From Cinnamomum chago (taxonomy: Eukaryota; Streptophyta; Magnoliopsida; Laurales; Lauraceae), in the NCBI GenBank assembly GCA_038049695.1, contig CP142452.1:33406501-33470500 (forward strand): a stretch of DNA of 64,000 nucleotides. Direction: 5' to 3'. The notes under the pieces were generated by a model that was not told the origin of the DNA, searched no databases, and was given only the letters and a program-made list of their open reading frames with translations. A program made the position numbers and the translations under genes. Positions within the stretch are counted from its first letter, which is position 1. Each line of letters starts with the position of its first letter. Positions 12,276 through 58,290 of this stretch are shown in pieces.

Positions 12276-12340
12276 GCCACCATGCCCTTAATTAATCTAG
12301 GATTGAAAACCACACAACATGGGATCATGATTTCACATGG

Positions 12341-12356: not shown

Positions 12357-12357
12357 T

Positions 12358-20605: not shown

Positions 20606-22008
20606 TGTTGACACCAAAAATGTCACTTTGCCTCTTCACACCAAAAGCTACATGGAGCCGCATCCTACCAAAAATAGGCAGGCCCCACTTCAAGCATCAG
20701 ATCTTGTCAGAATCAAACAAAAACTGCAAGGTCATTCAAAACAACCAAAAGAGAGGTACACATGAAGTTTTGGGCCATTCCGACATCATTTGGCCTAGCT
20801 TCACTTCTCCAACAGCTAAGCAGCAGCTCCCGGTGGCGACAGTGTCGAAGACCCCAAATCTTTGATCAGAGCCTACGGATGGTCTCAAAATACCTCCGAA
20901 AGGCTACATGTCAAGTTTCAAGTCAAACCGACACCGTTTGACCCTCCATCAACTCTCGAGCAGCAAAATCAAGCCCTTAGGTAGCGAGAACTACCGAGGT
21001 CGTCACTCATCAAACAGAGCACATGGGCGGCTTCTACATACTCTCAAAGGGCCAAACGTCAGATTTCAGGTCATTCCGACGACGTTTTACCCAGTTTCGA
21101 TGCTCGGAAACAAAATCAAGTCTACCGGCAGCAGAGCACCCCGGGACTATGGCACCCAATTTGGAGCTTCTGGATCATCTCAAAATGACTCCAGTAGGCT
21201 CCCCATCGAATTTCAGGTCAATCGGACATCGTTTGACCAGAAGTCAAAGCTCGACATTTCCCTCGCGGTGAAATAAAGGCAAGCGTTTGCATGACCCCAA
21301 ACAGCTTCAAAACTCAAACGAAAGCCTATGGTTGGTCTTATCTACTGATAAGGGAGTCACACGTCGAAATTCAGGTCAATCAGACATCGTTTGACCAAAA
21401 GTCAAAGCTCGGCATTTCCCTCGCTGTGAAATCAAGTCAAGCGTTTACGGGACCCCAAGCGGCTTCAAAACCAGAACAAAATCCTATGGCTGGTCTTGTC
21501 TACTGCTCAAGAAGCTACATGTCGAATTTCAGGTCATTCCGACATCGTTTGACCTAGTTTCGACGCTTGACAAAAAATCGGCAGTTCTCCACAGCAAAGT
21601 CTTCGGCTTTTCAGAAAATGGGAAACTTTGCGATCCGATTTGCACGGATTCTCGTCAGGTTTTCTTGAGGGAAATCCAGCCAATAAATGAGAGGAAATTC
21701 CAAGAAAAATGCACGAGAAAACAGAAGCGAAAAAGGACGAAAAACGGCGAAGAAAAGGCGACCGGAAGACGGCCGACCATGGAGGTCCGGGCCGCCGGAA
21801 CTCGCCCAAAAACCCCGTTTTTCGGGTATCTTTCGCGTTCCGAGTTGATTGGCCCCTGTGATTTTTCCAAATTCTGATTTTTTGAGCATGAAATCCGTCG
21901 ATCTTCGTCAACATCGTGGATCCGCCGCCGGAATCATGGAATCATCATCCGACACCTCAAAATTGTCAACCGACCGATCAAGAAAATGCACTTTCTGCCC
22001 AACCGATC
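20606..22008 (+). repeat. Element B 5' LTR, truncated
   Basis: It aligns with 43950 to about 45434 of the 3' LTR up to CTTTCTGCCC(A/G)ACC, then stops matching. The remaining roughly 1.3 kb of the LTR, including the TATA box, and any primer-binding site are absent, presumably by deletion into the leader. It contains about five 145-bp U3 repeats (20890-21560), each with a word like AGGTCATTCCGACATCGTTTG. The palindrome zone near 21777-21800 is contracted relative to the 3' LTR. Confidence 0.88.
20890..21560 (+). repeat. U3 tandem repeats of element B (about 145-bp period, five copies)
   Basis: Each copy carries TTTCAGGTCA(A/T)TC(C/G)GACATCGTTTGACC or a variant, then AAGTCAAAGCTCGG-like sequence. 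The matching array in the 3' LTR lies at about 44240-44900. Repeated U3 blocks often act as enhancer modules; that is inference here. Confidence 0.75.
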
Positions 22009-23567
22009 CAGTCTTTCTTGTTTCTAAAAAAAAATAAATTCTCAAAAAGAAACAAAATCTGATTTATAAAAATTTCAGATTTCCCTCTTTTGGATTCACA
22101 GTTGAGAAAGTTTGGTTTCTTCCTTTTCGGACTTTTGAGCTCGCAGAAATGTTGAGCTCATTTTCGGAATGGAACACCATTTGTTCTCTTCTATGAATCC
22201 ATGAAAAAAAAAATTAAAAAAAAATCTGATTTACAAAAAAAAAAAAAATTCAGATTTTCCTCTTTTGGATTCACAGTTGAGAAACTTTGGTTTCTTCCTT
22301 TTCGGACTTTTGAGCTCGCAGAAATGTTGAGCTCATTTTCGGAATGGAACACCATTTGCTCTCTTCTATGAATCCATGAAAAAAAAAATTAAAAAAATCT
22401 GATTTACAAAAAAGAAAATTCAGATTTCCCTCTTTTGGATTCACAGTTGAGAAACTTTGGTTTCTTCCTTTTCGGACTTTTGAGCTCGCAGAAATGTTGA
22501 GCTCATTTTCGGAATGGAACACCATTTGCTCTCTTCTATGAATCCATAAAAAAAAAAAAAAAAAAAATCTGATTTACAATTTTTTTTTTCAGATTTTCCT
22601 CTTTTGGATTCATAGTTGATAAACTTTGGTTTCTTCCTTTTCGGACTTCGAGATCGCAGAAATGTTGAACTCATTTTCGGAATGGAACACCATTCGCTCT
22701 TTTCTATGAATCTATAAAAAAAAAATCTTTCAAAAAAAAAAAAAAAAAGAACCACTAAGGTTGCACCAATTGTGTTGTTTGACCAAAGTGGATCTAAGAA
22801 AAGCCTTGTCCAGAGTGTGGAGACAGCTAGACTGTTCTAGGCAAGGGTCCTCCAAACGGGTTCATTAAGTAATCCTACCCTTACCTGGGGGCTGATCTAT
22901 CAACTGAGGTTTCATAAGATCGAAATGGAGATCTATGTGAATTCTTAAAAAAAAAATCTTCAAAAAAAAAAAATCTCTAAAAAAAAAAATCTCTAAAAAA
23001 AAAAAAGAAGAACAAAAAAAAAAAACTTCCGTCACTTTTGGATTCACACTTGAGAAATCTTGGTTCCTTCCCTTTCAGGATTTCGAGCTCGCAGAGAATG
23101 TTGAGCTCATTCTCGGAATGGAACACCATTTGCTCTCTTCTATGAATCCAATCTTGACCTTTCAAAAATCCCATCTCGTGTCCTTTCCAAGGATGCAATT
23201 TGCAACATTTGTGCCTAGCGGTGCTAGTACGCCCTTTCGGGTCTACTGTATTCGTAACCGACACATTTGTATCTCAACCTTATATCATTTTACCTTGAGT
23301 GAGTTGTGCTTCTCGGTAATTTGAATTAAGGTTCACAATTGCTTCTAGCAGTCACTGGGACGCTCATTCTGAGCTGACCCTACCTGCGTTTAGAACAATT
23401 GTGCCCTCTATTGGGTTTCTGCCTTCCTCATGTTGCTTGGGCTGGGCCATGTCCCCTCAGGCGACTTGAAGAGGCGAAACCATAGTATTTTCCATTTATG
23501 ATCACCATATTCTTGTGATTACTAATGGATATGGTCTTGTTTCAGAAGTTTTTCAAAAAAACTAACA
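22009..23567 (+). repeat. Element B leader with about 150-170 bp tandem repeats
   Basis: Four adjacent copies (about 22060-22715) and a diverged fifth (about 23030-23155) contain TTTGGATTCACAGTTGAGAAA, CTCGCAGAAATGTTGAGCTC and GAATGGAACACCATTTGCTC. They are separated by A-rich tracts of variable length. From 23160 to 23567 there is unique leader sequence running up to the gag start. No primer-binding site was found at the left end. Confidence 0.8.
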
Positions 23568-24462: not shown

Positions 24463-26473
24463 ATGGTTGGCAAGACCAGAAGACGTCAGAAGTCATCAAC
24501 AAAAATTCATGTCAGGCGTCCGGTGACTCGAAGCGTCTCCCGGACACGAAGACATAAAGAAAACTCTCCCGCTCCTTCAAGCCAAGGACATCGGAGTGAC
24601 CACTCTTCGAGCTCTTCATCTAAAAGGATGAGCTCCAGTTCAGTCACCAAGACTGTATCCTCTTTCGACTCTCGAAGAGTGAACGTCTTGGTCACAAATG
24701 CTGAGCAACCTCCGCCACATGATGACGTAGCTGCACGCATCCAGCAGCTGGAACAAGGATAGCAGAGAATAGAGGCCCTAATGGAAAACCTCCTTCTCAC
24801 TATCCAACGTCCGCCAAACAATGAAACTCCTCCGAGCCATCAAGGCGACGAAGAAAATGCGGAAAACAGTGAGTCACGTGCCCTTACCAAAAAGGACGTT
24901 GACGATATCCTCGCCAAAGCAAAAGAAGAGGATACACTAAAGGAGCATGGGATCAAGCCACCATATCCCTTGTGGATGGACTCGGTCCCGGTCCCTACAA
25001 AATTCAAGCAACCTACTCTCCAAACACATACAGGGAAAGGTTCAACCAGACAGCACGTCATCCATTTCAAGATCCTGACGGGAGCTATTACGGATCAAGA
25101 TGCCCTCAAAATCCGCCTCTTTGCAAGTACCCTAAAAGGTACGGCCTTTGATTGGTACTCCACTCTGCCGGAGGACTCCATTCAAAATTGGGCCATGATG
25201 GAGACACGCTTCCTAACCCACTTCAAAGGTGAGGATCATCCTGTTACTATGGCTCAGCTCTGCAGCCTAAAACAGGGAGAGAATGAGTCAACATATGACT
25301 TCATTCACAAGTGGAAGGCAATGGCATACAAATGCTCCGATGTACTGCCACAAGCGTCACTGGTCGACATCTGCCGAAACAACATGAGAGCAAGAATCCG
25401 CTCCATGATCATCGGCAACAAATCAAAGAACCTGGGAGAACTCCTGGAAGCAGCTATGGAAGCTGAAACGGTGATCAAAGACCTCAACAGTCAGAAATCA
25501 TCAAAGAAAGAGCCGACTGCCATTGCAACCTCAAAACCAAAGAAAAAGGAGGTTCTCAATGTGCAAACCAAGTCAGCTCCTCAGCAGCCAAAGAAAGCTG
25601 AAAACAAAGCTGCAGGTAAAAAGCCTGAACTCTCTGATGCATTCAAAGAACGAGTAGAGAAGAAATACCCGTTCGTTGAAGATGTTGAAGAAATCTTTGG
25701 GGCACTTCTCGCAAACGGTAAACTCACCTTGCCTGACCCCAAAAGACCAGGAGATGTGGGCAAAACCAACGATCCTCGGTACTATCCATACCTTCAGATG
25801 GTCTCGCATCCTCTCAGTCAATGCTTTGTTGTGAGAGAGAAGATAAATGAGATGTGGAAAAACGGAGTCATTACCTTCGACAAGAACTATGGGTCTGCCT
25901 CCGTCAACATGGTGTCGTGTGGACAAAAATAAAAATCACCAAAAGAGAAGATCACTACTTCCTTCAAGGTGATAAAGATGACCCAAATGTCCCAAGAGTT
26001 GGTTCCATATCTAACATCAGACGGACAGCCCATATGGGTACACCCCGATATCCTAGAAGATGAAAATTGGGAGGTCATCAAAACAAAGCCAACCGCTCGA
26101 CAGCGAAGGCAAGCCAGGAGACAACTCCGCAAGCTCAAACAGCAGGAGAAAGCTCCGAAAAAGCAAGAAGTCACTGAAAAGGCAGAGACCTCCTCTACCG
26201 CTTCACTGGGGACAACAGAAGAGTCCTCTCCTAAGACTTCAAAGGCGGCAAGAAAATTCACTCTTGGTGATTTCATGCCACCACACCTCAAAGATGAAAC
26301 TATGCAAGGGGCATCATACTCTTGCAACTCGGTGGTCAGATTCCCCATGGATGGATACGAGTCCAGTGACATCGATGAATGGGAAGAATCCCTCAAAACA
26401 GGAGAATATCTCTCTGACGAGGAATGGATCCCTGAATCTCATCTTATGCCAGTAATCTGGTATAACCCATTAC
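24463..26473 (+). pseudogene. Element B gag core
   Basis: The stretch opens Arg/Ser-rich and contains the gag core, with LKIRLFASTLKGTAFDWY and FIHKWKAMAYKCSD, the classic plant Ty3/gypsy gag signature. It then becomes Lys-rich. A TAG stop sits at 24760-24762 and a TAA at 25930-25932; the same frame reopens after each. The second could be a natural gag end or a mutation. At 26473 the frame is cut by S1 and resumes in register at 30528, after the duplicated ATTAC. Confidence 0.88.
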
Positions 26474-29034: not shown

Positions 29035-29150
29035 CCGATCGATCGGCCCGAAAAACCTCAAATTTCTGTACCCGAATGTACAGGGTCCGATCGATCGGCC
29101 AATCGATCGGCCCGAAAAACCTTACAGTTACTGACAGTCCGATCGATCGG
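29035..29150. repeat. S1 palindrome cluster (CCGATCGATCGG)
   Basis: The perfect 12-bp palindrome CCGATCGATCGG occurs at 29035-29046, 29087-29098 and 29139-29150, with a partial copy at 29101-29110. Short words such as CCCGAAAAACCT lie between copies. The cluster is about 860-980 bp downstream of the S1 TATA motif. Confidence 0.9.
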
Positions 29151-30006
29151 ACCTGGGCGTGCAGGTCCGGGAAACACTGATTTTCTTCCTTTTCTTTCCT
29201 TTCCTTCCAACATATAATCAATCACATAAAACTATAAACAAGGGGACTTAAACACATGTTTCCAAGACATTAAAATGAGCTAAAGAGCTCCTCATTTCAA
29301 GTTCCTCCATTTCCATCCTTTCCATTCACAATAAATCTCAAAAGTGGAGAAAACTCATTCATGTGAAACCATTTGAAATCTTGACACTATGATACATACA
29401 TTTCCAAGAGATTAACAAGGGAGAAATAACTCATCAATAAGCACATCTAGTAATCAATATTAATCATATTAAAGACAACTATTAAAATCACCAAAACCAT
29501 TAATGAATCAAGATTTTCTCACACAACATGTTAACAATCAAAACAATCCAATCAACCACTTGCCTTTGACTCTAATCAAGCAAATCAAGCTCCTAATCAC
29601 CTCTCAAGCTCAAGATCCACAATCTCTACAAAAACCCCCAAAACAACCCTAAAATGGGTTAAACAATGAAATGACAATGAAACCTTTCAATAATCAAGGT
29701 GGAGCTTCTCTAAGGCTAGTAGATTACAATTCTAGAAGATGGGAAGAATCACTTACTTGGATGACCTTCAAATGAGAAGAACAAGCTCAAGGGAAGTCTT
29801 GTGATGGAGGGTTCTCTTCACAAATGGTACCAATGGAAAGCTTGCAAGATGAGGAAGAAGAAGACGGTCTCCATTTCGAGTTTGGTGAACTATTGGTGTG
29901 GCTTGGAGATGAAGAAGCAAGAAGAAGAAGAGAGCACAAGGAACCCTAGGCTCAATAGTTGCTGATTTGTGCTGGAAATGAAGATGGGGAAGAAGGGAGG
30001 TGGGTT

Positions 30007-30014
30007 CTCTTATA
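30007..30014 (-). promoter_or_regulatory. Putative TATA box of S1
   Basis: TATAAGAG on the minus strand is preceded by TTGC and followed by a leader whose words match the S2 leader downstream of its own TATA. Position conservation between the two LTRs supports the call. Confidence 0.6.
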
Positions 30015-30523
30015 GCAAGTGAGAAGGGGTCCCACAACTTAAGGAACTTGGGTGGCTGGAATCATCTATTTGTGGGCCTCGGATGCGATCGACGAAGAAG
30101 AGAAAAATGATCGTCGAAATATCTAGTTTCCAAAAAGTGTATGTTTCACGGATTTCGAGAATATCGAGTTTTGGGTACAGATTTGGTGTGAAAAGACTGT
30201 TTTGCCCTCAAGGCCAAGAAATCGGGTTTTGGGTTCTCAAATGGATACGAGATCAACATGAAAGTTGTAGAATTCCTCAAGATGAATGCAATGGGACAAA
30301 AACACAATACGAAACAAATCGGGAAAATCTCACAAGAAAATGCAAAGCCGAAAAGGGAACCCCCAAAGGGCCCCACAAGCTACCAAAGCACTCAAAAGCC
30401 CAAAACTAGAAGAAAAATCATTCTAACTCACAAACTCAACCCAACAAATACTAATCCCACTAAAAGAACTAATCCACAAACAAAACAACACTAATCCAAG
30501 AGATTAGGGGTCGGGTTCTCACA

Positions 30524-33215
30524 ATTACAGCCGCAAGGATCCTGGTCTGATGATGAAGAAGACCAAGAGGCTGTTCAAGAAAACACTTTAGTGGAACCCA
30601 GCCATGTTGAACCACAAGGAGCAAACGAAGAAGAAGATTTGGCTCCCGTGCCTGATCTCGATGAATACGCAAGGATCTTGCAGCACCTTGCTATAGAGCA
30701 AGAACAAGGTCGCATCAATCAGCTTCGTCACAACCCAGCACCGGAAGTTCTTGAAAATCTACAAGAATCTCCTCCGGTAACCCCGGAAAACGAAGAAAGC
30801 TGTTGGATCGATGATCCTCCTACATCTGAGGACGAATCTAATTCCCAACAGTTCATCTTGGAGGCATCTTCTGTCAAAGTTACTTGCAATGCAATAGCTC
30901 AGGATGATAATTCCTCACCTTCTCAGGCTTCGTCTCCTGGAACAGTGACATCGGAACTCAAACCTCTTTCGACGGATCACCTTGAAGAAATTCCAGCCGG
31001 TGAAATCTTCTTCAGAGAAAATCCGGTCAATTGGTCCCAAATGCCCGATCTCATCAGTGATGTCTGGACCGACAAAATATTCGATAAAGAAGGAAAGTTG
31101 CTGGATGTTGTTCAGGACTTGCTCCCGGAAAATGCTCCATGCAACACAATTACTGAAGATGGCAATGCTGACACAGAGACATCTTCAGCAAATGAGAAGG
31201 AACAACCCCTCGATCTCGAGGGTGATCTTCCAAACAAAGACCCTTCTCCAGAAGCTCTTGAAGTTGGTAGAGGTACCCGTTCTGGCCGGGATTATCACAA
31301 AAACTACAACCAACCTTCTGCTTCTTATGTAAATCCTTTGGGAAAACAAGCTGTAAACGCCCCTAGTGGCAAGAATAATGAAAATGCAGGCCTCAAGGAG
31401 GCTTTCAAGTACGACTTGATTCAGCACTTCAAACACATACCTGCACTTCTGCACATCCTAGACTTATTACGAATGTCACCACAGACTCGTGATAGTCTCA
31501 TTTCAGAACTACAAATGCTAGATGCGGATGTCGACAAACATGCCCCACAAGTCCTACAAATTGAAATGGACTATAGGGTCAAAAAATCAAAAACTCCCTC
31601 AAAAGGAGAAAAGAAGAAAACTGAGGGATCCTGCATCGAATGCCTCTCGGTTCAAAAAGCAGCAAGTGCAACCATCGCCTTCACCAAGGAAGACCTCCTG
31701 CTAGGCGAGACAAAGCACAACCGACCCCTGTACTTCATTGGGTACATCAGAGAGGTGCCGGTACGCAGAATCCAGATCGATCCAGGTTCTGCACTCAACC
31801 TCATCTCCACTTCGGCACTTGAAGAACTGGGCATTCCGCCTAGCAAGCTGAGCCACACGTCCGTGTCCATCTTTGGATATGATGGCAGCGCTCAAAGGTC
31901 GATCAGCAAAATCAGGTTCAAGTTGCAAATCGGTGATCTTTTCTCCGAGGTCACTGTCTATGCAATAAAGACCCCTTCATGCTACAACATCCTTCTCGGA
32001 CGCCCCTGGATACACGAGAATGGTGTTGTCCCTTCGACTTTACATCAGTGCATCAAGTTCGTTGGCAATGATGGCTTGATACATCGAGTGTTTGCAGACA
32101 AAAAGCCCTTCAAAGGCAAAGAAGTCTATTTCGTAGATGCTCAGATGTACAAAGATGAAAAAGAAGAAAGGGAGGAAGAAACAACACCCTTTGCCGAAAA
32201 TCTCCAGAAAGACAAAGGCAAGGCTCCTCAGCAATCACCGGAAGAAAACAAACCCTCTATCAAAACCGAAGAGAATAATCAATCTCCCTTCATGGTCTCC
32301 CTCAAGTCTTCAAAGCCTCTGGTGATCACCACCAAAGCAAAGAAGACAAAACAAAAGGCTGGGGGCAAGTTTGATGTCCCCTTCGTGTCTATCTTGCAAG
32401 ACACGGATTCGGACTTAGAGCCAGAAGATGACACATCGTCAAGCCAAGCTGATGATCAACAAGTTCAGCCCGCTCTCACTCCGATGGAGACAACTGTTGA
32501 CATAGAAGATCCGGCATCTGCTTCCTTCGTTGTTCCAGCAACATCAGCAGAAGAAAAGCCAATCTTCTTCCATAAATCGGGAGTTTCTTCATCAAATTCT
32601 TCGCTTGAACCTTTCCAAAACGAAGGTATGCCTCAACTATCCCTTTATAGTCCAATGGCACAAGCTATCATGAAGAAAATGGGCTACGACGCTCAGAACC
32701 CAATCGGTTTGGGAGGTGGCCGTGGTATTATCACGCCATTGGAACCAACCCTGACCAAAAGTCAACTGGAAGGTTGGAAACCCCACCACCACATAGAAAA
32801 GTCTTCACATGGGCTGGGGTATGATCCTGACGCTCCCTTGAGACAGTTGACACAAAGGCTGCAAAGTCGTCTTGCCGACCAAGCCTCAACATCTCATATT
32901 AATGAAGACATCGATCTCCCCGGATATCTCTTTGAAGAGTCACCCGTCAAAGATTCAGGAAGCTCACCCAATTGGTATGATTTCTCGGATGATGAAGAGG
33001 AATTGACCGATGATACGGATACACGATTTTCTAGCCCAGAAGAACCATCATCTCCAAAAGAAGTGCCCTACTTCGACCTAGTTTCAACAGGTGATTGGGA
33101 CCATCTCATAGCAAATCTTGAGAAAAGTACCAATCAAGAAGACTCCAGAAGGCTTTGTTGGGCTGGAAGCCTCCAAAAATATTGTGGAGGAACCACCTTC
33201 AAACCTTCCAACTGA
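30524..33215 (+). pseudogene. Element B protease and G-patch region
   Basis: An open frame of about 890 codons continues gag in register after S1. An acidic low-complexity part comes first; then the aspartic protease with IDPGSALNLIS (about 31779) and its second motif YNILLGRPWIH. A second acidic linker follows, then a G-patch-like motif at about 32653-32830 (MKKMGYDAQNPIGLGGGRG, HGLGYDP). The D-P-G-S active site, rather than D-S/T-G, is common in Tat elements. The frame is lost near 33130-33170, where RT-linked sequence continues in another frame. Confidence 0.88.
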
Positions 33216-35247
33216 AGATTCTGTTCAAAAGATAGACTTGGGAACACCTGATCACCCACGTCCTGTATTCATAAGCAAGAATATAAAGGATGATGAGTTA
33301 CCCGAGTATATCGCGTTTTTTCATGAGTACGTTGATTGTTTTGCATGGTCTTACACTGAGATGCCTGGCTTAGACCCCAAAATAGCAGTCCACAAACTCA
33401 ATCTTCAAAAAGATATCAAGCCTGTCAAACACGGCCAAAGAAGGTTCCGTCCTGACGTGATGGACAAAATTGAACAAGAAGTTCAAAAACTCAAAAGCGT
33501 TGGCTTCATCCGTGAGGAACAGCATCCTGAATGGTTGGCCAACATCGTCCCCGTGACAAAGAAAATTGGGCAAATCAGGGTCTGCATTGATTACAGAGAC
33601 CTGAACAATGCATGCCCAAAAGATGAATTCCCGCTCCCTATACCGGAGGTGATGATCGACAACACCTGTGGGTTCGAGTGAATGACATTCATGGATGGCT
33701 TCTCTGGCTACAATCAGATAAAGATGCATCCTGAAGATGAAAAACATACAGCATTTCGGACCCCGTTTGGCGTGTATTGCTACACTGTCATGCCATTCGG
33801 TCTGAAGAGTGTCGGCGCTACATATCAGAGGGCTATGATGAAGATATTCCAAGATATGCAGCACAAGACGGTCGAATGTTATGTCGACGACCTCACCGTC
33901 AAAAGCAAAAGAAAAGAAGACCATCTCAAAGATCTTCGAGAAGTCTTCCTCCGACTTCGCAAACACAAACTGCGAATGAATCCCCTCAAATGCTTCTTCG
34001 GTGTTTCATCGGGTAAGTTTCTCGGATTCATAGTACGGAAAGCTGGCATAGAGCTTGACCCCATCAAAGTCAAGGCTATCCTAGAAATGCCATCTCCAAG
34101 AACCCTAAGACAATTAAAAGGGCTCCAAGGAAGATTGGCATACATTCGACGGTTCATCTCCAACCTATCAGGGAAGTGCCGTCCATTCTCTCGGTTAATG
34201 AAGAAAGGTGTCGATTTTGTCTGGGATGCTGAATGTGAAGCCGCGTTCCAGGACATCAAGTCATACCTGACTAAACCTCCAGTGTTGGCTGCCCCCACAA
34301 CTGGAAAACCATTCCTCTTGTACACAAGAGCCCTTGACTGTTCTTTAGGGGCTCTACTCGCACAGAAGAATGACGAGGGAAAAGAAGCTGCTCTATATTA
34401 CCTTAGCCGCATGTTGATAGGTGCAGAGCATCGCTACTCTCCAGTCGAAAAAGAATGCTTGGCAGTAATGTTCGCCGTACAAAAACTACGTCACTACCTG
34501 CTATCCAACACAGTGTACCTAATTTCGAGGATCAACCTCCTAAAGGTCCTTGTCACAAAAGCAGGTTCTCTCAATGCCCGACTGACAAAATGGTCCATCC
34601 TCCTGTCACAATTTGACATTAGGTATGTACCACAAAAAGCAATCAAAGGCCAAGCTCTAGCAGACTTCCTCGCGGAGCATCCATTGCCTAAAGATTCTCC
34701 ACTCAGGGACGACCTCCCAGACGAATCGGTCTACAGTGTGGAGACTTCCTTATCAAATGCTTCCTGGCACATGTACTTCGATGGCGCAACCAGGACAAAT
34801 GAAAAGGGAAATCAAATATCGGGAATTGGCATTCTCTTTGTTAGTCCCGACAAATACATGATTCCACACGCATTCTCGCTACTGGAACCATGTTCAAACA
34901 ATGTAGCTGAGTACCAAGCCCTCATCGCAGGATTGGAGCTCGCCCTCGAATCCGGCATCACTACGCTGGAAGCTTTTGGAGACTCTCAACTGATCGTCAA
35001 CCAGATGAATCAGAAATTTGAAGTCAGGAAGCCCGATCTGTTGCCTTACTACAACAAGGCACAATCGCTTCGCCAAAAGTTCGACATCTGTCACATCACC
35101 CACATCCTCAGAGGTGAAAACATTCGTGCAGATGCCCTGGCTGGACTTGCTGCGTCTCTGGCAATCCAAGAAGGGGAAAACATGCAAGTTACAGTGTGTC
35201 AAAAAAAGGATTCTCCCTCCTCTCAACACACATCAAGCAGTTGCTAA
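33118..35247 (+). pseudogene. Element B reverse transcriptase, RNase H and second (archaeal-type) RNase H
   Basis: RT begins before VCIDYRDLNNACPKDEFPLP. A TGA at 33679-33681 interrupts where Trp is expected (before MTFMDGFSGYNQ). MPFGLKSVGATYQ and the catalytic YVDD (33880-33891) follow. The first RNase H has ALDCSLGALLAQ and YSPVEKECLA. From about 34765 a second RNase H appears (MYFDGATRTNEKG, NNVAEYQALIAGLELAL, GDSQLIVNQM, RADALAGLA); this duplicate, archaeal-type domain is the best single marker of the Tat lineage. A frameshift near 35200 separates it from integrase. Confidence 0.93.
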
Positions 35248-36559
35248 ATGCCACCAAGTGGTTGGAAGTCGGATCTCCGTCCTTAAACCTCTGATCGGCG
35301 ACTGGAGGGATCCGTTCATTGATTACATCATGTTCGGAATCCTACCTGAGGATCCAAAAGAGCGGGTAAGCATCCAAAGGCGAACCCCAAACTTTCATTT
35401 GGATATTCCTTCAAAAATGTTTTATAGGAAATCCTACAATGGAGTACTTCTACGCTGCTTGTCACAACAAGAGGCTGAGGAAACACTCAAAGAAGTACAT
35501 GCTGGTCTTTGTGGAGCCCATCAGGCTAGGCCTAAGCTCTACGATCAGATAAAAAGGTTAGGTTATTATTGGCCTACCATGGTGGCTGATGCAATGCAAT
35601 TTGCTAAGCGTTGCCAACAATGCCAAGTTCATGGAGATTATGTCCACATGCCTCCGGAATGGCTACATCCTATAGCAATCTCATGGCCTTTTGAAGCCTG
35701 GGGTATGGACATCATAGGTCCTATCTCTCCCCCATCAAGCAAAGGTCATCGCTTCATTTTCGCTGCTACGGATTATTTCTCCAAGTGGTCAGAAGCATTC
35801 GCGCTCAACGAAATGAAAACCTCGTCAGCCCTTTAATTCTTGCACACTAATATAATTTGTCGCTTCGGCATACCTAAAAGATTCGTCCATGATAACGGAC
35901 CACAGTTCCGCGATCACCGATTCTACAGGTTCTGCGACAAATACAAAATCCAAAGTTGTCCTTCAACTCCGTACAATCCGGCAGCGAATGGACTAGCAAA
36001 GGCTTTCAACAAAACGCTCTGCAAAATCCTCAAGAAAATGGTCTCTAGTCACAAAAGAGATTGGGGCGACAAACTGCCTAAAGCTTTGTGGGCCTATCGA
36101 ACCACCGTTCGAGGACCAACCCATAGCACACCATTCTCCTTGGTCTATGGATGCGAAGCTGTTGTCCCTTTGGAAGTTCAAATTCCTTCCTTAAGGGTAT
36201 CTCTGCAAAATGACATGATGCAAGAAAGTAATGTCAAATTGAGACTCCAAGAGCTGGATAACCTTGATGAGAGACGGCTCGAAGCTCTACAAAGCATTGA
36301 ACTCTACCAAGCACGCATGGCAGGATCTTTTGACAAGAAGGTCAGGCAACGCGCCTACAAAAAGGGAGACTTGGTTCTTACAGTAAAAAGACCAATGGTT
36401 TTTGCCAACAAATCCAAAAGCAAATTTGAACCAAAATGGGAGGGACCTTTCGTCATCGACAAAGTCTTCTCCAACGGCGCATACGCTCTTCTAAACATGG
36501 AGGGTGACAGATGTATGCTGCCCATCAATGGAAAGTTCTTGAAGCGGTACTACCCTTGA
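35200..36559 (+). pseudogene. Element B integrase
   Basis: The zinc finger (HAGLCGAH, then CQQC) is intact and the catalytic Asp residues are present in MDIIGP and VHDNGPQF. The third catalytic position is Lys (codon AAG, 35999-36001, in ANGLAKAFNKT) where Glu is required; one G-to-A change explains it. A TAA at 35834-35836 also breaks the frame. The C-terminal part ends with KWEGPFVIDKV and FLKRYYP; no chromodomain is seen, as expected for Tat. The stop is at 36557-36559. Confidence 0.92.
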
Positions 36560-36934: not shown

Positions 36935-37330
36935 GGAAGCGACGTTCAGTCGATACTTGCAAAACCCAAAATCGGAAGGATGCGAACCCCATTCGATACT
37001 TCCAAAACCCCAAAATTTCAAAAATCGTGGACACGCAACGTTCCAATTGATATCCACAACCCAAATTTTAAAACAAACAAAAAACAAAACAAAGGTTCGA
37101 AAAAACCTCAAACTTCAAAAATCATGGGGAAGCGACATTCCATCGATACCCACAAAACAAAATTTTTGAAGACAAAAGCAGGGAAGCGACGCTTAGTCGA
37201 TACTTGCACCCAAATCCGCGAGGAGGCGACATTCCATCGATACTCGCAACCGAATGAGCAAGGAGGCGACATTCCATCGATACTTGCAATACCATTCAGC
37301 AGGGATGCGACTTTTAGTCGATACTTGCAT
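36935..37330 (+). repeat. Element B array: about 60-70 bp units with GCGAC...CGATACTTGC
   Basis: About seven or eight imperfect copies contain AGGGAAGCGAC, TTC(A/C)(G/A)TCGATACTTGCA or close variants. They lie in the 3' part of the element, sense to B. The array is downstream of the antisense gene's stop and so would fall in or after that gene's 3' untranslated region. Confidence 0.8.
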
Positions 37331-37805
37331 TTTTGAAAACCAAAAACCTGGCTTTCACGCCAAAAACTCGGCTTTTATGCCAAAAATCAAAATTCGGCTT
37401 CCATGCCAACAAAACAAAACTCGGTTTTCAAAACAAAAAATCTGGCTTCCATACCAAAAAGAAATTTCGGCTTTCATGCCAAAAACAAAATCTGGTTCTT
37501 ACACAAAAAAAAATCTGCTTTCATGCCACAAACTAAAAAATCGGCTTTCATGCCACCTCAAAATTCGGCTTTCATGCCATCTCAAGAAAAATTGGCTCTC
37601 ATGCCATCCCAAAATTTGGCTTTCACGCCACCAAAATCAGCTTTTATGCCACCTCAAAATTTCGGCTTCCACGCCATCCAAAATTTTGGCTCTCATGCCA
37701 TAAACCCAAATTTCGGCTTTCATGCCATCTCGAAATTCGGCTTTCAAACCACACAAAAAAAACCCTGGCTTTTGCTGCAAAATCTGGCTTTCATGCCAAA
37801 ACAAC
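37325..37805 (+). repeat. Element B array: about 20-30 bp units with GGCTTTCATGCCA
   Basis: Some seventeen or more short units contain the semi-palindromic GGCTTTCATGCC, spaced by A-rich text. Several frames stay open across the array because the unit lacks stops, which produces spurious Ala-Phe-Met-Pro peptides. A related word, CGCCTTTCACGGCA, recurs at 46393-46475 in the 3' LTR. Confidence 0.85.
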
Positions 37806-38085
37806 CCTTTTGACAAAAGATTTTCACAAAATGATAACCTTTTGATCAAAATTTTCAAACAAACATTTTCATCCAACCTTTGCTTATTTTCATCAAAAAG
37901 AATTTAAGTAAAAGGTACACAGAATACCAAAAATGTTTTACATAGAGGTACCAAAAAAAAAAAAAAAAAAAAAGAAGAAAAGAGTTTGTTATAAAGAGCT
38001 CAGTCTAGCATGGTCTTCAACCAAAGATCCAGCTCCTCAAGCAGACTCTTGGCCTTAGCCTCTAAAGCTTCCAGGCCGCGCTTCT

Positions 38086-41000
38086 TCAAGATCTTGCCAT
38101 AAAATACGGCAGAACGCCGCGACCCTCTTCCCAGAGAATTTGCCACTGCTCATACTCCTGAGTCTTTCTCTGAAGGCTGCTACCGGCTTCTTCAACTTGG
38201 CGAATCAGAGTTCCCTCTTTAGCACGGGCTTCTACAATGGCAGTCCATTTGGCAGCACTTTGTTCTTGCAATTGCTCAAGGCGCTGCCTAGCTTCTGTGA
38301 CCTCCCTATCAAGACGGCGCAGGTCCTGTGTTAGCTCGATGATAGCCAACTCGGTAACGTTCCTCTCCCGAACGAATTGCTTCCGAGCCCGTGAGATCTC
38401 ATCCATTTCAGATTTGATCTTACCGGATGGCTGCAAAAACATCTCATTGAAGAAGTCACTGCTTGGGAAATTCTTGGTCTCAGTCCATTTGTTGCCTAAA
38501 GCAATGACTTCATCAACAAAGGCCTTGGCACTTGCAATGTCCAGACCGACCTCTGCACTGTCAGCAAGGATGTCCTGTACATGCTTGACCATGCCAAAAC
38601 CAGCTTCCAAATGGCCAGAAGAGAGAGTTTCAACCCATGAGCTCAGCACACTCTTCAACACCTTCTTTGCATATTGAAGGGATGGTCCGGATGGAGATTC
38701 ACCACGCTCTGTTGGCTGACTGCCCATGTCAGGCCGTGGTGGAGAAGAAATCAAAAGGCTCTTTCCAATCGGAGCCACTGAAGAAGCAATATCACCACAA
38801 AGTCCCGCCTCTGCCGTGACAGGACTGGTAGAAGAAGCCCCTACTTCTGGATCGGCTGCTGGCATCTCCTGCTCTGGCCCTGAGGAAGACGAAGGAACTT
38901 CTCCTGTTGCTTCACAACCTGCTGGCAAAAACACAAGAAAAGGTATGAATATGATATTGTCAAAAAAAAAATCAATGTCAAGATTATCACTATGAAATAC
39001 CTTCTTCCATGATGGGTGGAGTACTTTCTGTCTCCATTTGCTCATCTGAGGCATCGTCAAAAGCCATATCCATAGATGGCTCGAAGTCGGAACCCTCTGG
39101 CAAGTCAACTGACAAGAAAACAAAAAATATATATGTGTCAGCAAATTCAAAAAAAAAAAAAATCATCCTCATACCAGGTGGAGATTCTGGGTCCTCCCCA
39201 GAGTCCCTCAATTCTTCTTCAGATGCCGCAACTGGATCCATCACCGCCTCATTGACAGGAACCCCGGGCATCACCAAGTTTCCATCTTCTGCAAAAGAAA
39301 GAAAACAGCAGATCAAAAAACAAAAAAAAATCCCTCATAAAAGGAAAGAAGCGGAAATAGAAAAGAAGGAGAATCATACCAACATCGGCAGTCTCTTCTT
39401 CACGACTCCTCTTCTCTGGAGGCTCATCAGCATCTCCTGATACCTCCTCAGTAATGGTAGGAGGGACTTCCAGATCAGGAGAGTCTTCGTGGCGTCTCTC
39501 AGTGCGACGTTGTCCTCTCATCCTCTTTTTTCTACGAGCCGGTCTACTTGAAGTACCTGCCTCACTGTCAAAGTCAGGACTTCCACTTGGCTCCTCACTG
39601 GACGGCCCGCTCCTACCAGTGGACCCCATGGAAGCCTTCATTCGCTCTGCTTGCATCCAAGTGTCGATCTCGGCTTCCTCCTCCTCGAGTTGTCTCAAGA
39701 CCTCAGCAGGTATCTCTTGTGCGGCTCCAGATCTGATGACGTCCTGTTCCTCGAGAAAGCCTATCCTATGCTTCTCTCCAGAAAGTAAGAACAAAACCTC
39801 CTCTCGACGGACGCCATCTGATCTACCAAGACCCTTCCCAGGAGATTGCTTAATATTCAGCTCCTTCTTGGAAAGCCCTCGGTACACAGCAAAGCTCTCC
39901 ACGAACCACTTCGTGAAGCCAGCAGTCCGAAAAGTGGGCAACTCAGGATAGGAAATCATAGCAGTGGTGTCTTCTGCACTATAGAAGGCCCATGCATTTC
40001 TTCCGTCCTGCAAACCTCCAAAGCGCTTCACCATTCTCGAAGGCGCTCCAACAACGCCTTGAGAGAAGCCTAACTGCAAAGCAAAACGCGAAGGGACATA
40101 CGGCTGGATGTCAACAAAAAGATGTCTGCGGTACACCGTCGTGCCAACACGTATGTTTAAAAGCCACCTCTTCTCTGCGGTGGTCAAAGAATAGTGTCTT
40201 CCCGATCCTGCCCTGGTGGAATCACGGGAGACACCAAAATCAAAAGCCTTCTTCCGCAAATCTGGAGAAAGCTTTACTGAAGACTGCCCCATCTCGACGT
40301 CCCTAAACCATCGGATTCTCAAACGGGCAGACAAAAGAGATTCAGAGACGGCTTTTCCTCTAGCCAACCGAATCATAAAAGGGTCATCATCCTGAGCAGC
40401 GCCCAAACGGTGGAAGCCAGGACAGTGGTACACATACCACGAATAAAAAATATGGGCTGAAAATACCCTATTCATAGGAAGCCCAAGCCAAACCAGAAAA
40501 GCAGCAGCCTGCAGTTCGGTGCACAAATAGGAGTAAAGAGCAGGCACCAAAGCCAACTGCTCTCCGAACGCCATCTGACAAGCCGGAAATATACAATGCG
40601 GCCTGATGTGTGTTCCGTCTCCTCCAGCAAAAACAGCTTCACCCAGCCAATAAGTGAGGTACGCAGCAACGTCTCTCCGCAGCGCAATGTCGGAGCAAAC
40701 GGCGTCTGTACTTGCGAGAAAGTTCTTCAAATTCTCTCGCATGGCGGAAATCTTCTTCCCCGGATTCTTAGCCTTGGCTTCTTGGGTCATACTCTCAGAA
40801 GGTTCTTCGCCGCCAAAAAAGTTTGGAGACAAAGAGCTGAAACTCCTCCAACTGCTACACCGGACTTTCGAGCCCTCCTTCTCCTTCAAAAAATCATAGA
40901 AGGCGACGAGCTGAAAGTACAAGAGCCTAAACTCCTCAGACCGCTCCTCAAGGACGCTGTCGAATGGCATAAACTCCTCATAGAGATTGCCAAGGATGGG

Positions 41001-42829
41001 CAACCTGGTAATGGCACTCAACTCCTTCAAAGTAAAACCAATCTCACCATTCGTGACAACGAAAGTGTTGGTTTGTGGAAGGAAAGACTCCAGCATGGCC
41101 ATAAAAGCCTCATCGGAGAAAACTACGGTTTGACGAAAAGCACGAACCGCATCGAAAATCTCGGCCTCCTTCAGAATGGCACCGCCAATCTGCAGGATAT
41201 GATCAGTCCACGACTCCCAGCCTGAGTCTGCACTGAAGCGGCCACGAAGCCGAAATGGCTTTACCCGATTGCTGCCATCGCCCCTGAAAATGCCAAGGCC
41301 CACCAGTCTCAAATCGACCGATGGATGATCAGATCCTTGGTAGCCGCTGGCCGGCATCAACATGTCCAGACGGACAGGCGACTTCTTTGCATAACCAGAA
41401 GGACCACCAACAAAAACCCCGGTCTTGACCACATTGGTCCTCTTCACCCAGCTTGGAGGATCTTCTCTCTTAGAGCATGTGGGAGAAAGACTCATGATCG
41501 AAATAGTACGATCAAAAGTCGATCGGGTAGAAATGGTTCTCTCCTCACCATCAGCTGTGTAAGAGAATTGAAAGCATCTCCTTTGGTATGACGAGTCATC
41601 AGGGGCTGCATCACCAAAGAAAAAGGTAGGCTTGGGCACAACGCTCTGATCGTCCATGACCCAAGGACGATTGCTTGCCATAATCTTGTAGAACTCCTCA
41701 TCCTTGAGAGCGATCAGTCGCTGTCTCATCTCATCTCGGTTGAGCGAGTCACACTCTTCCAAATTTCTCTCCACATATTGGACCTTCTCCCAGGCCTGCT
41801 GTACGGCCGCATTGAAAGATCTGGCAGATCGACGAGGTGCATCAGTAACGGGCTCCTTACCCTTGTTCGTTCTGAAGGAACTACCTGCAATGGAAGAAAA
41901 AGAAAGAAAATCAATCACCAAAATGACAGAATTTTGCTAAAAAAAAATATCCTAGCGAAATTTTGACAAGGCTCCGGGGCAATTCCGAAGAAAAGGGAAA
42001 CACCCCGAAAAAAAGATTGGAAGCCTGAAGATGAGCTCAACATCACCACGAGCTCATAATCAACGAAGGATCCTCAAAGAAAGCTTGAACTCAAACATTG
42101 TTGCAAGATCAAGTTAGTCTTCTCAAATCTCCGCAAGATCGGAAAAGAGCTCAACATTGCTGCGAGCTTCAAATTCCAGAACTTGCAAAGCTCCTCAAAA
42201 TCCCGCAAGACTAGGAAAGAGCTCAACATTGCTTCGAGCTTCAAATCCCAAGACTTGCAAAAGATTTTCAGGTGTGCATCATCATGCTCCCAATCAATTT
42301 ACCAAATCTCATGCATAAAAGAAAAAAAAGTCATCATGCATTAGACGCTAGGAAAACTTTGACAAAAAGTTTGACCAATTCCAACCCAACTTGGTCAAAA
42401 TCAATCAAACTTTGTTTAAGTCAAAATTCATGTTGGCTTAACCTAGAGACTCTAACTTTTTATCTTGATGCATAAAAAAAAAAGTATGTAGACGAACATT
42501 TTGGATTGCATAAACCTCATTATCATGGTGAGCAAAAAAAGTAGAGAGAGAGAAAACCTCATTCAAAAAAAAAAAAAAAATTTCTGAGCTGGCCCACAAG
42601 CCACGTGGCTGTACGGTCTAGGCCGTACAGCAGCAAAAAAAAAAAAGAAAAAAAAAGGAAAAGAAAAAAGAGAAAAAAAAAAGGAGAAAAAAAAAACGTG
42701 TGAAAAAAAAGAAGGAAAACACGTGAAAAAAAGAAGAAAAGAAGAAAAAAAAAAGAAGGAGAAAAGAAACTTTTTTCTACTTTTACATGCAATCTCTTGT
42801 TGAGAAAAAAAAAACTCACTTGAAGCCAT
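38086..42829 (-). CDS. Antisense spliced gene in element B: plant-mobile-domain-like protein
   Basis: It lies opposite to gag-pol. Predicted coding exons are 42829-42820, 41884-39380, 39288-39175, 39108-39001 and 38921-38086. Introns start GTGAGT, GTATGA, GTATGA, GTATTT and end in pyrimidine-rich tracts with CAG. All junctions are phase 1 and the total is 3573 nt, 1191 codons including the stop. The start ATG (42827-42829) sits in CCATGG context, about 110 bp downstream of a TATA box. About residues 245-505 resemble the aminotransferase-like plant mobile domain (FLPQTNTFVVTNGEIGFTLKEL, shown in part: NGEIGFTLKELSAITRLP; RPHCIFPACQMAFGEQLAL). Then come a basic NLS-like RPARRKKRMRGQRR, acidic segments and a C-terminal coiled coil. 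After the stop, another frame continues with Leu/Lys-rich coding-like sequence to 38000, so the original C-terminus may have been longer. The function is unknown. Confidence 0.75.
41885..42819 (-). other. Predicted first intron of the antisense gene, with about 80-bp repeats
   Basis: This 935-bp intron runs from GTGAGTTTTT to TTCTTCCATTGCAG. At about 42030-42260 it contains three copies of a block with GAGCTCAACATTGCTGCGAGCTTCAAAT-like content (word GAGCTCAACATTGC) and ACTTGCAA. Its 5' end is extremely pyrimidine-rich on the transcribed strand (about 42560-42780). Confidence 0.6.
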
Positions 42830-42940
42830 GGAGAAGAAAAAGAAGAACTTGAAGGTCTTTGAAGAAGAGAAGATCTTGGAGCACTCTTGAAGGTTTTTGC
42901 AAAAAGAAAAGCAATAGGAGCAAGAGATCCCACCCCTTTG

Positions 42941-42948
42941 CTTTTATA
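42941..42948 (-). promoter_or_regulatory. TATA box of the antisense gene
   Basis: The minus-strand TTCTATAAAAGCAAAG contains a consensus TATAAAAG 112 bp upstream of the ATG. This leaves room for a start site about 30 bp downstream and a roughly 80-nt CT-rich 5' untranslated region. It lies about 1.0 kb inside the 3' LTR and points away from it. Confidence 0.65.
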
Positions 42949-43019: not shown

Positions 43020-43200
43020 AAAAGAAAAGGAAACTTGGGATATTCTCTCCCAAAACAAAGATTCTTTGAGAAATTCTCTCCCAAAGAAAGATATTTTGAG
43101 AGAATCTCTCTCAAAATCAAGAAAACTTGAGAAAATCTCTCAAAGTAAAGATATTTTTAGATATTCTCCACCCAAAGGAGATATCTTTAGATATTCTTTA
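43020..43200. repeat. Short repeats upstream of the antisense promoter
   Basis: Some four or five units of about 35-40 bp contain AGATATTTTGAGA and AATTCTCTCCCAAA words. They begin about 75 bp upstream of the antisense TATA box, a position fit for promoter-proximal elements (inference). Confidence 0.65.
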
Positions 43201-43949: not shown

Positions 43950-46733
43950 TGTTGACACCAAAAATGTCACTTTGCCTCTTCACACCAAAAGCTACATGGA
44001 GCCGCATCCTACCAAAAATAGGCAGGCGCCACTTCAAGCATCAGATCTTGTCAGAATCAAACAAAAACTGCAAGGTCATTCAAAACAACCAAAAGCGAGG
44101 TACACATGAAGTTTTGGGCCATTCCGACATCATTTGGCCTAGCTTCACTTCTCCAATAGCTAAGCAGCAGCTCCCGGCGGCGACAGTGTCGAAGACCCCA
44201 AATCTTCGATCAGAGCCTACGGATGGTCTCAAAATACCTCCGAAAGGCTACATGTCAAGTTTCAAGTCAAACCGACACCGTTTGACCCTCCATCAACTCT
44301 CGAGCAGCAAAATCAAGCCCTTAGGTAGCGAGAACTACCGAGGTTGTCACTCATCAAACAGAGCACATGGGTGGCTTCTACATACTCTCAAAGGGCCACA
44401 CGTCAGGTTTCAGGTCATTCCGATGACGTTTGACCCAGTTTCGATGCTCGGAAACAAAATCAAGCCTACCGGCAGCAGAGCACCCCGGGACTATGGCACC
44501 CAATTTGGAGCTTGTGGATCATCTCAAAATGACTCCAGTAGGCTCCCCATCAAATTTCAGGTCAATCGGACATCGTTTGACCAGAAGTCAAAGCTCGGCA
44601 TTTCCCTCGCGGTGAAATAAAGGCAAGCATTTGCATGACCCCAAACAGCTTCAAAACTCAAACGAAAGCCTATGGTTGGTCTTATCTACTGATGAGGGAG
44701 TCACACGTCGAATTTCAGGTCAATCAGACATCGTTTGACCAAAAGTCAAAGCTCTGCATTTCCCTCGCGGTGAAATCAAGTCAAGCGTTTGTGGGACCCC
44801 AAGCGGCTTCAAAACCTGAACAAAAGCCTATGGTTGGTCTTGTCTACTGCTCAAGAAGCTACACGTCGAATTTCAGGTCATTCCGACATCGTTTGACCTA
44901 GTTTCGACGCTTGACAAAAAATCGGCAGTTCTCCACAGCAAAGTCTTCGGCTTTTCAGAAAATGGGAAACTTTGCGATCCGATTTGCACGGCTTCTTGTC
45001 AGGTTTTCTTGAGGGAAATCCAGCCAATAAATGAGAGGAAATTCCAAGAAAAATGCAGGAGAAAACAGAAGCGAAAAACGACGAAAAACGGCGAAGAAAA
45101 GGCGACCGGAAGACGGCCGACCATGGGGCACAAACCCCATGGTCGCCGGCGACCATGGCCCATAGTCGCCGGCCCCATGGTCGCCGCCGACCATGGTGCA
45201 TGGTCACCGGCGACCATGGCCCGGACCTCGCCCAAAAACCCCGTTTTTCGGGTATCTTTCGCGTTCCGAGTTGATTGGCCTCTGTGATTTTTCCAAATTC
45301 TGATTTTTTGAGCATGAAATCCGTCGATCTTCGTCAACATCATGGATCCGCCTCCGGAATCATGGAATCATCATCCGACACCTCAAAATTGTCAACCGAC
45401 CGATCAAGAAAATGCACTTTCTGCCCGACCAATCAAGAAATCGACTGGACAGATGTCGCCGGCTTGTTGATATTAATCAAAGTCTGAAATTGCATGATCA
45501 TCCGATGTCGATCAATATGAAGATCCATCGATGATCATCGCCAAAAGAATTCCAAAGGACGCGGCGCGGCCCGTGACTCTTCAAGCGACCGGGAGACCAT
45601 TTAATGCTGTTAATTGACTTGTTTATGGCAACTTATTACAGTCATTAACTCATTATCTTGGACGGCCCAATCAAAAGCAAGCAAATGAGAGTTACAAATC
45701 CAAGTATTCATGGCATTAAAACCATGAAACTCTCCTCATTATGGAGATTAAAGGCAACTAAATGCCCATTATCCTCCACCGGCCAATCAGAAGCCAAGGA
45801 AAAGGAGTTACAAAACAAGTAAATTAAAACTTGTAACTCCTTCCATTATGAGCATTAATACAAATAAATGCTCATAAACTCTCCTAAACGACTACCAAAT
45901 GCCTATAAATAGGAGGCCATTCCAAGGGAAACAGATCCAGAAAAATCGCCAGAAAATCATTCAAAAATCATCGGAGAAATCTCTGCAACCATGCTCCTTC
46001 AAGAAAACTCTACTGCAACAAGCACTACAAGGTGATCAAAGCCCCTTGGGGGGGCCACCCCCCCCCCAAGGCCACCTCTCCTTCTATCCAACATGGCTAG
46101 ATGCGGCTTTTCAGCCCATCTACTCGGCTTTTTACCGGATATAGGACCTTACCTTGGTCCTTATCCTCTAAAAATCTGAGGTTGGAGCCAAGCCAAGAAA
46201 TCAAGCATCAAAGTTCTCATCTGAAGGACGATGGCGGAGTCCATACATGACTCGCGACCGTCGATCTGAACAGGTCCCCCACAATCGCATGAAAAGTTAG
46301 ATTCCTTTTCTTTCTTTTCTGTTGCATTGTATTTTTTTATAAAGAGACAAAAAAATCACATCTCTTGTCTTTCATTATTGATAAGATTTGTAAATCGCCT
46401 TTCACGGCAAAATCGCCTTTTACGGCACCAAAATCGCCTTTCACGGCAAACAAAGAAAACCGCCTCTCACGGCATTAAAAAAAAAACAAACCTTGTCTCT
46501 TTTCTTTAAAAATATGTGTGCAATGGAAAGATGGAAAAAAGTTGATTTCCTTTTCTACTTGTGAAGGTGAATCTCCGGATCACCATTCTAAATTCTAAGT
46601 AGAATAGAAAATCTGGCATACCCAAAAAAAAATGTTGATACCCGTTTCTCCCATTTCCTCCACCCTCCTTCCGGACCCCGACAGACCCGGGGTGGATGGC
46701 AGCGGAGGAGGAACGGAGGGGCGCGGTCCATCA
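43950..46733 (+). repeat. Element B 3' LTR (2784 bp, complete)
   Basis: It runs from TGTTGACACC to GTCCATCA, followed by the TSD TAGTG. It contains the five-unit U3 array (44240-44900), an expanded palindrome zone (45113-45232) with a perfect 22-bp palindrome at 45137-45158 (half-site CCATGGTCGCC), a TATA box at about 45903, and CGCC-TTTCACGGCA repeats at 46393-46475. It is the only complete copy of this LTR here. Confidence 0.92.
45903..45911 (+). promoter_or_regulatory. TATA box of the element B 3' LTR
   Basis: GCCTATAAATAGGAGG is a strong plant TATA context. It lies in the part of the LTR missing from the 5' copy, so it now points out of the element rather than into gag. Confidence 0.75.
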
Positions 46734-55405: not shown

Positions 55406-56141
55406 AAGGGATACTTGGATCAATGATTCTAACCTCCTAATTCGTGCTAATCGTATCGTACTTAGGCAAACTATGTGTAATCTCTTTAGGAACAACCTGA
55501 GTGCGTTCTATGTAATGGGAAGGGGCTTGGATGGTGTTATAGTCCATTCCTTGTATGAGTAGTGGGTTGAACTCGAGATCTCAACGTGATTTGACCTTTT
55601 CTCTCACAATTTCTATGAATCGTCGAACTAAGTGTAAGACCCCGACCCGAGTGAACTCGATTAGTATTAATTAAGTTGTGTGTTAGTTCTAAGCTTGATT
55701 AGTGATTTTGGCTAAGTTGGGTTTGGAATAGCTTTTGAAATAGTTTTGGGGAATTTTAATTGCTTTGTGATTAGTGGAGGGGGCCCTTTGGGGGTTCCTT
55801 CTTTATGACCTTGCATGCGCTTGAGGATTTATCGTAGATTTTTGCATTCATTGTTTTAATCCTATTTTATTTGTATTGATAATCCCTACAACTTTCATAT
55901 TGATCCCGTCCCCGTTCGAGCTCCCGAATCCCGATTTCATAGCCTTGAGGGCAAAACAGTCATTGTGCACTAAATCTGTACCCAAAACTTGATGTTCCCG
56001 AAACCCGCGAAACATATACTTTTTGGAAACTAGATATTTCGACGATCAATTTTATTTTCTTCATCGAGTTCATTAGAAGCCCCGAAAGCCAAGATTTCAG
56101 CCCTTGAATGTCGTAAGTAGTGGGACCCATTTCCATTTGCT

Positions 56142-56149
56142 TATATAAG
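56142..56149 (+). promoter_or_regulatory. TATA box of S2
   Basis: TTGCTTATATAAGGAGACCC matches the S1 context TTGCTATAAGAGAACCC in position and flanks. It could start transcripts running right into S3. Confidence 0.65.
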
Positions 56150-58265: not shown

Positions 58266-58290
58266 AGGACTAGCCGTTGGCAACTTTTTG

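Follow-up and report, generated by a model that had tools for sequence, protein, structure and literature searches.

The DNA analysed here, hereafter the window, is a 64,000-nucleotide stretch of the Cinnamomum chago genome (GCA_038049695.1, contig CP142452.1, positions 33,406,501 to 33,470,500). Between 20606 and approximately 45435, it contains a Tat-type LTR retrotransposon of ~24.8 kb, which carries an antisense gene of five exons on its minus strand. The 5′ LTR (20606..22010, plus strand) begins with TGTTGACACC, and comparison of the LTR pair places its 3′ boundary to within a few bases. The 3′ LTR (43950..45435, plus strand) is preceded by the purine tract AGGGGG. The two LTRs are 97.45% identical over 1177 nt and 97.2% identical over 214 nt (BLAST), with a K2P divergence of 0.032 (1403 aligned columns and 82 gap columns). 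On inspection by eye, no PBS of the main element was recognised after the 5′ LTR, and inspection by eye likewise revealed no TSD. Further along the plus strand are 170-bp tandem repeats within the gag-pol leader (22068..22726), an open gag frame (24763..25932; Retrotrans_gag, E=1.9e-12), and a broken prot-pol region (30495..36559), interrupted in frame by stops at 33679 and 35834 and shifted in frame one or more times.

The domains recovered from prot-pol were Asp_protease_2 (below cut-off), RVT_1, RT_RNaseH, RVT_3, Integrase_H2C2, and a partial rve (below cut-off). In the frame 33682-35244, RT_RNaseH (residues 208-311) is followed by an additional RNase H (RVT_3, E=8.5e-21, residues 372-488), and the integrase zinc domain comes next, in the frame 35009-35836. 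The element therefore has the second RNase H by which Tat elements are recognised, and has it between RNase H and integrase, which is the arrangement of Ogre and Retand (PMC6317226). Ogre is also defined by a PBS for tRNA-Arg and by an intron-like gap between the gag-prot and RT frames; at the place corresponding to the gap, which is a lesioned region, the frames 30495-33215 and 33112 onward overlap. We conclude that the element is a Ty3/gypsy retrotransposon of the Tat type, on the Ogre or Retand side, with Ogre the more likely of the two. An earlier note on this DNA had placed the gene in antisense inside a Tat element, and both the additional RNase H and the LTR pair bear this out; the gene lies downstream of pol and ahead of the 3′ LTR.

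Read along the minus strand, the gene is preceded by tandem repeats of about 30 bp (43035..43197), which lie just upstream of a candidate TATA box (TATAAAAG, 42941..42948) that ends 112 nt before the ATG. Exon 1 (42820..42829) supplies only 10 coding nt (ATGGCTTCAA), with the ATG at 42829 in the context CCATGG. It is followed by intron 1 (41885..42819), exon 2 (39380..41884, 2505 nt), which contains the plant mobile domain (PMD) and a basic patch, exon 3 (39175..39288, 114 nt), exon 4 (39001..39108, 108 nt), and exon 5 (38086..38918, with an alternative start at 38921), which encodes a coiled-coil-like C-terminus and ends in an early stop. The four introns (935, 91, 66, and 79 nt) are T-rich and of the GT-AG type, and every junction is in phase 1. 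On the gene's strand, their GC content is 0.24-0.35 and their T content 0.44-0.59, as against 0.48-0.54 and 0.21-0.27, respectively, in the four longer exons. The exons, phase-1 GT-AG introns, TATA string, and CCATGG start proposed in the earlier note were all found as described. The same note's count of 1191 codons without an internal stop holds if exon 5 begins at 38921 (1190 aa plus the stop); however, 38918 is the likelier start, given the tandem acceptor CAGCAG, and yields 1189 aa.

Several other features of this region were considered and set aside. The Evening-Element-like string AAAATATCT has two copies ahead of the TATA box, which is chance level (1.54 expected per window; 44 of 100 shuffles reach 2). 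Some avocado protein models (P0009, P0012, P0028, and P0029) read through intron 1 as coding sequence, where the window is interrupted by stops and shifts of frame. A nested DNA transposon was rejected as the source of the gene; there are no flanking inverted repeats longer than 16 nt, and the 16-nt pairs are scattered in a chance-like manner.

Could an open frame and a set of splice signals have come together by accident? GT and AG are common, and TATA strings occur at the density expected by chance (3 in the window vs. 3.36 expected), so that only its placement counts in favor of the TATA box candidate. However, the open frame spans about 835 codons; when the 4-kb region was simulated 2000 times with an order-2 Markov model, the longest open frame over all six reading frames had a median of 187 and a maximum of 498 codons. 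An accident would also leave the Pfam match and the 29 relatives described below to be explained. We regard the probability of such a coincidence as negligible and, judged by sequence comparison, a chance origin of exon 2 is already refuted by its homologues.

The predicted protein matches the PMD profile PF10536 with E=2.3e-15 and 57.1 bits, above the curated cut-off of 34.9, in keeping with the PMD-like protein of the earlier note. The match joins residues 246-463 to positions 2-163 of the 347 in the profile, so that the best stretch covers the N-terminal half of the profile; the same profile is also matched by 10 of the 14 members of relative group A1. The basic patch proposed earlier is likewise supported, and lies in exon 2. 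A Pfam search with the predicted protein listed four families at E up to 10, and PF04195 (Transposase_28) was not one of them. Structure prediction for exon 2 (700 aa, 26 sequences) returned no confident fold (mean pLDDT 31.1, pTM 0.19).

Relatives of the predicted protein numbered 29; 26 are protein models from avocado (Persea americana) and three are other records. The avocado set consists of predicted genes drawn from two annotations of a single species, so its entries are not all independent. Of the 13 avocado models containing exon 3, nine repeat the exon 2-3 junction; nine of the 13 make the exon 3-4 join and the other four skip exon 4. The GCE acceptor of exon 5 recurs in nine models. 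The 10-nt exon 1 is repeated by P0020 (MTSSSSSRTNKG) alone among the seven models with this N-terminal segment, and many avocado models skip parts of exon 2. Pooled identity is 0.84-0.90 in most windows of the PMD region, falls to 0.56-0.69 in the linkers at residues 751-1000, and is 0.86 at 1001-1050. Elsewhere, a scan of viral contigs with P0006 gave two pattern matches and a scan of genome contigs with A1 gave 63, with no relatives in either.

We then compared six of the 29 relatives, chosen by us, with 200 runs of a neutral amino-acid simulation (kappa 3, window as ancestor). Replacements in P0006 (80% identity) and P0015 were more conservative than in all 200 simulations, these being the two of the six relatives with that property, and in three of the six the unevenness of distribution exceeded all neutral simulations. 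The closest relative, P0001, was indistinguishable from the neutral simulations. These proxies for protein-level selection thus present a mixed picture. Nor is the window copy itself intact at its 3′ end: two of the three models that extend past 38086 (P0005 and P0011) run on in another frame when compared with the window by tblastn, leaving an out-of-frame C-terminal remainder (38000..38085, minus strand) in which the match stops at 38003 and is followed by TGA. P0001, read against the window, is likewise frameshifted near its end. The window copy of the antisense gene is probably decayed. The earlier note's caution that intactness might be luck was a fair one, given the lesion density of pol, at which one lesion in 3.6 kb is unremarkable.

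These observations bear on the idea that the gene is a passive passenger, captured from the host or from a MULE, now useless, and open by virtue of recent origin only. The 3′ frameshifts in the window copy and P0001, the neutral-looking differences of the latter, and the many avocado models that bypass parts of exon 2 are what one might expect of such a passenger. We nevertheless consider it unlikely, as relatives at 63-87% identity still encode it and for the most part share its junctions, P0006 and P0015 depart from the neutral simulations, and the PMD recurs in Ogre elements, being present in 57% of them (PMC6317226). The case for the gene, as far as sequence can make it, is carried by conservation between species and not by the intactness of the window copy; a multi-exon gene encoding a PMD protein, with relatives in avocado, looks real.

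New in the present analysis is a 23-bp motif with a double GAGCTC that is common to the gag-pol leader and antisense intron 1. There are four copies within the leader repeats (22137, 22312, 22482, and 22650) and three in intron 1 (42033, 42147, and 42219), with no further match anywhere in the window. The motif sits just downstream of both start regions, and each copy is oriented with its own transcript, gag-pol or antisense, which would also permit action at the RNA level. One could envisage a self-regulated circuit of two promoters, in which the PMD protein, or a competing host factor, would recognise the motif and spare both units from silencing; we hold this to be a rather doubtful proposal. 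The sequence of the DOWN motif was not found in the available part of PMC7156037. We also hold it improbable that the antisense RNA, rather than the protein, is what matters, through double-stranded RNA or interference with the sense RNA. There is sequence overlap between the gene and the 3′ portion of the element RNA, and such a role has been discussed for antisense frames (PMC7264820), but it would leave the protein-level conservation and the frame-keeping phase-1 introns unexplained.

The explanation we prefer, and consider reasonably probable, is that of an accessory gene of a Tat element, antisense, transcribed from its own promoter and spliced, whose nuclear-acting protein affects the expression of the element. 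Pol II would initiate at about 42.95 kb, and the protein encoded by the spliced antisense transcript would be roughly 1190-1230 residues long, with a predicted N-terminal PMD, basic patch, acidic linker, and helical C-terminus, and with probable entry into the nucleus. Its most likely effect would be on expression of the element itself: the protein might serve as a transcription or chromatin factor, or it might interfere with silencing by host PMD proteins of the MAIN/MAIL type. The introns of the gene would outlast copying, since the genomic RNA corresponds to the opposite strand and they do not act as introns there; an intron-bearing gene can thus ride in a retrotransposon, but only in antisense.

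The promoter-like and intron structure would suit a domesticated host gene that lies by accident inside a dead element, and the host PMD proteins MAIN and MAIL1 do silence transposons (PMC7156037, PMC5418596). We find this highly improbable, since the gene occupies the exact pol-to-3′ LTR position of Tat antisense frames, has many avocado paralogues on many chromosomes (judged partly from gene names), and is frameshifted in the window. The window copy of the accessory gene that we favor has well-defined exons, a promoter candidate, relatives in avocado, a crop tree with a sequenced genome, and a motif common to both leaders; it thereby offers concrete junctions and a concrete candidate site for testing.

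Additional PMD frames in Ogre elements were reportedly the subject of Steinbauerova 2011. That paper and Gomez-Orte 2013 lay outside the literature searched, within which we saw no antisense PMD gene with introns described. Clades of the PMD-A type are encoded by Gypsy elements (PMC5418596), and these and the Ogre PMD frames share with our gene a PMD in a Tat-type Ty3/gypsy element with an additional RNase H, whereas the available parts of PMC6317226 and PMC5418596 describe no antisense gene of five exons under a promoter of its own. A role in silencing for PMDs encoded by transposable elements is a published hypothesis (PMC8616336, PMC5418596). MAIN and MAIL1 have the same Pfam domain, but are host genes of clade PMD-C without a retroelement context. 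The TRP28 antisense frames of Retand (PMC11963269) are of the PF04195 type, in contrast to the protein predicted here. HBZ and other antisense genes of HTLV (PMC11963269) are also antisense accessory genes of a reverse-transcribing element, with a nuclear product; the likeness drawn here is one of description, and the HBZ promoter, unlike that proposed here, is in the 3′ LTR. Our gene has the arrangement that defines aORF-3R, an antisense frame located after pol and before the 3′ LTR. Such genes are also marked by antisense transcription from their own promoter, for which the window shows a TATA string in a suitable position. In Grande of maize, no PMD or introns are described for gene23 in the available part of PMC7264820, unlike here, but that gene too is antisense, lies between pol and the 3′ LTR, has its own promoter upstream, and reportedly encodes a nuclear protein. 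The antisense gene of the window belongs to a type of accessory gene that is known from earlier work.

In the DNA of the minus strand we read the gene structure that the earlier note had claimed, with a candidate antisense TATA box, an ATG and four phase-1 introns. The TATA string TATAAAAG (42948-42941, minus strand), which by a frequency check in the window is not rare in itself, is followed after 112 nt by the ATG at 42829. The five joined exons (42829-42820, 41884-39380, 39288-39175, 39108-39001 and 38918 or 38921-38086) encode a plant mobile domain (PMD) protein of 1190 aa, or 1189 aa if the second of two tandem acceptors in intron 4 (CAGCAG, 38919-38924), which would add or drop one residue, is used. 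Every intron is phase 1, with lower GC and higher T than the exons, and the longest frame in 2000 order-2 Markov trials never exceeded 498 codons. Tandem repeats of ~30 bp lie immediately upstream of the TATA box (43035-43197); AAAATATCT occurs in the window as only two strings, both within these repeats, a count at chance level.

Three protein searches gave 13, 29 and 13 proteins, with a union of 29 relatives: 26 avocado (Persea americana) models from two annotations, two ENA contigs (P0001, 95% identity; P0022, 87%) and P0006 (80%), a PMD transposon protein of plant type that is recorded for Yersinia pestis on a 4348-base contig and is most likely a plant contaminant in the assembly. Each search scored only the ~8000 candidates sharing most words, and wider relatives may therefore be missed.

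Junctions were read from the relatives' sequences together with a listing of joins. Among 13 avocado models containing exon 3, nine have the exon 2-3 join of the window (P0002, P0003, P0004, P0007, P0008, P0009, P0010, P0024, P0025), and four enter exon 3 by another join (P0005, P0011, P0013, P0014). Nine of the 13 proceed from exon 3 to exon 4, which the other four skip (P0004, P0005, P0011, P0024), as is possible because the exons are phase-1. Exon 5 starts with GC(E/V) in nine models (P0002, P0003, P0004, P0005, P0010, P0011, P0023, P0024, P0025), all of them lacking the additional Ala that the upstream acceptor would give; five exon-4-holding models use other joins after exon 4 (P0007, P0008, P0009, P0013, P0014). 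P0006 reads through the exon-2 donor into the intron, where similarity is lost. Exon 1 is repeated exactly in one of seven models with the N-terminal SSRTNKG segment (P0020, starting MTSSSSS); P0001 and P0022 are contiguous frames extending backwards across the acceptor (FAG), a portion of intron 1 is translated in P0012, P0028 and P0029, and P0015 differs.

At the 3′ end, three models continue beyond WEE, close to the C-terminus, with sequence that can be compared. P0024 ends ...FMAKF, like the window's FMARS. P0005 and P0011 continue ...ILKKRGLE-LEAKAKSLL-EL--WLKTM-D, a match to the window (38122/38125-38003) that is out of frame with the gene model. The 1191 summed codons claimed earlier are thus real in length, but the last of them most likely result from a frameshift in the window's copy. 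P0001, too, departs from the shared frame shortly before it ends.

Pooled identity of the relatives to the window, in 50-residue blocks, was 0.79-0.90 at 1-350, 0.67 at 351-400, 0.81-0.90 at 401-700, 0.56-0.69 at 751-1000 and 0.72-0.86 at 1001-1150. For six of the 29 relatives we ran 200 neutral simulations each. The mean BLOSUM62 of the differences lay above the neutral mean in all six and above every simulation in two (P0006, P0015), and the differences were spread more unevenly than in any simulation in three (P0004, P0006, P0022); P0001 was neutral-like in both respects. No stops were observed against 2.0-7.8 expected, although open-frame databases conceal stops. As an amino-acid proxy, no substitute for dN/dS, this leans towards longer-term selection with decay of recent copies.

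The host element, ~24.8 kb, is delimited by an aligned LTR pair (20606 to ~22010 and 43950 to ~45435; 96.9% identity, 1403 aligned and 82 gap columns, K2P 0.032). Between the LTRs, the plus strand carries in turn 170-bp tandem repeats, gag, protease, RT, RNase H, RVT_3 and pieces of integrase. RVT_3, a second RNase H-like domain, sits between RNase H and integrase, a mark of Ogre or Retand within Tat (PMC6317226). Its sense genes are broken by in-frame stops (33679, 35834) and frame changes, and gag-prot is split by a nested 4.05-kb insert (26474-30523; TG...CA ends, 5-bp repeat ATTAC either side). Inverted pieces of a 74-76% relative lie at 55741-60586. Elsewhere, 2011-nt direct repeats (99.5% identical) at 4454-14368 (minus strand) enclose copia-like gag and pol frames, seen by eye; this is a young LTR retrotransposon.

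Intron 1 and the gag-pol leader repeats have a stretch in common. A 23-bp motif with two GAGCTC ends, chosen post hoc once the similarity had been noticed, matches four times in the leader (22137-22672, plus) and three times in intron 1 (42033-42241, minus), each set oriented along its own transcript. Searched across the whole window with ≤6 mismatches, GAGCTCGCAGAAATGTTGAGCTC gave these seven matches versus four in total (0.2 each) in 20 order-1 Markov sequences; as copies inside each set are tandem repeats, there are effectively two occurrences, not seven. In avocado models that read intron 1, the translated motif, LAAM(L/F), appears four times in P0012 and P0028 and once in P0009, with three similar copies in P0029, which suggests, from protein models rather than DNA, that the array is retained in avocado intron 1.

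During retrotransposon copying, antisense-strand introns stay in the sense genomic RNA, so that an intron-bearing gene is transportable only antisense; the gene was probably acquired as DNA or unspliced sequence. Its product may be a nuclear protein acting in the element's expression. Transposon PMDs (PMC8616336) and MULE-captured PMDs (PMC5418596) are proposed to counter silencing. We found no description of the five-exon form and shared motif in the literature searched, where coverage of key papers was incomplete; PMD in Gypsy elements (PMC5418596), its presence in 57% of Ogre elements (PMC6317226) and antisense accessory genes (PMC7264820) are already published. Short tandem-repeat arrays are described in Retand, and the window element has such arrays at 37197-37758, between pol and the antisense gene. 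For Grande gene23, the antisense gene of maize Grande, an own promoter is reported (PMC7264820), and the window gene would likewise be transcribed from its own.
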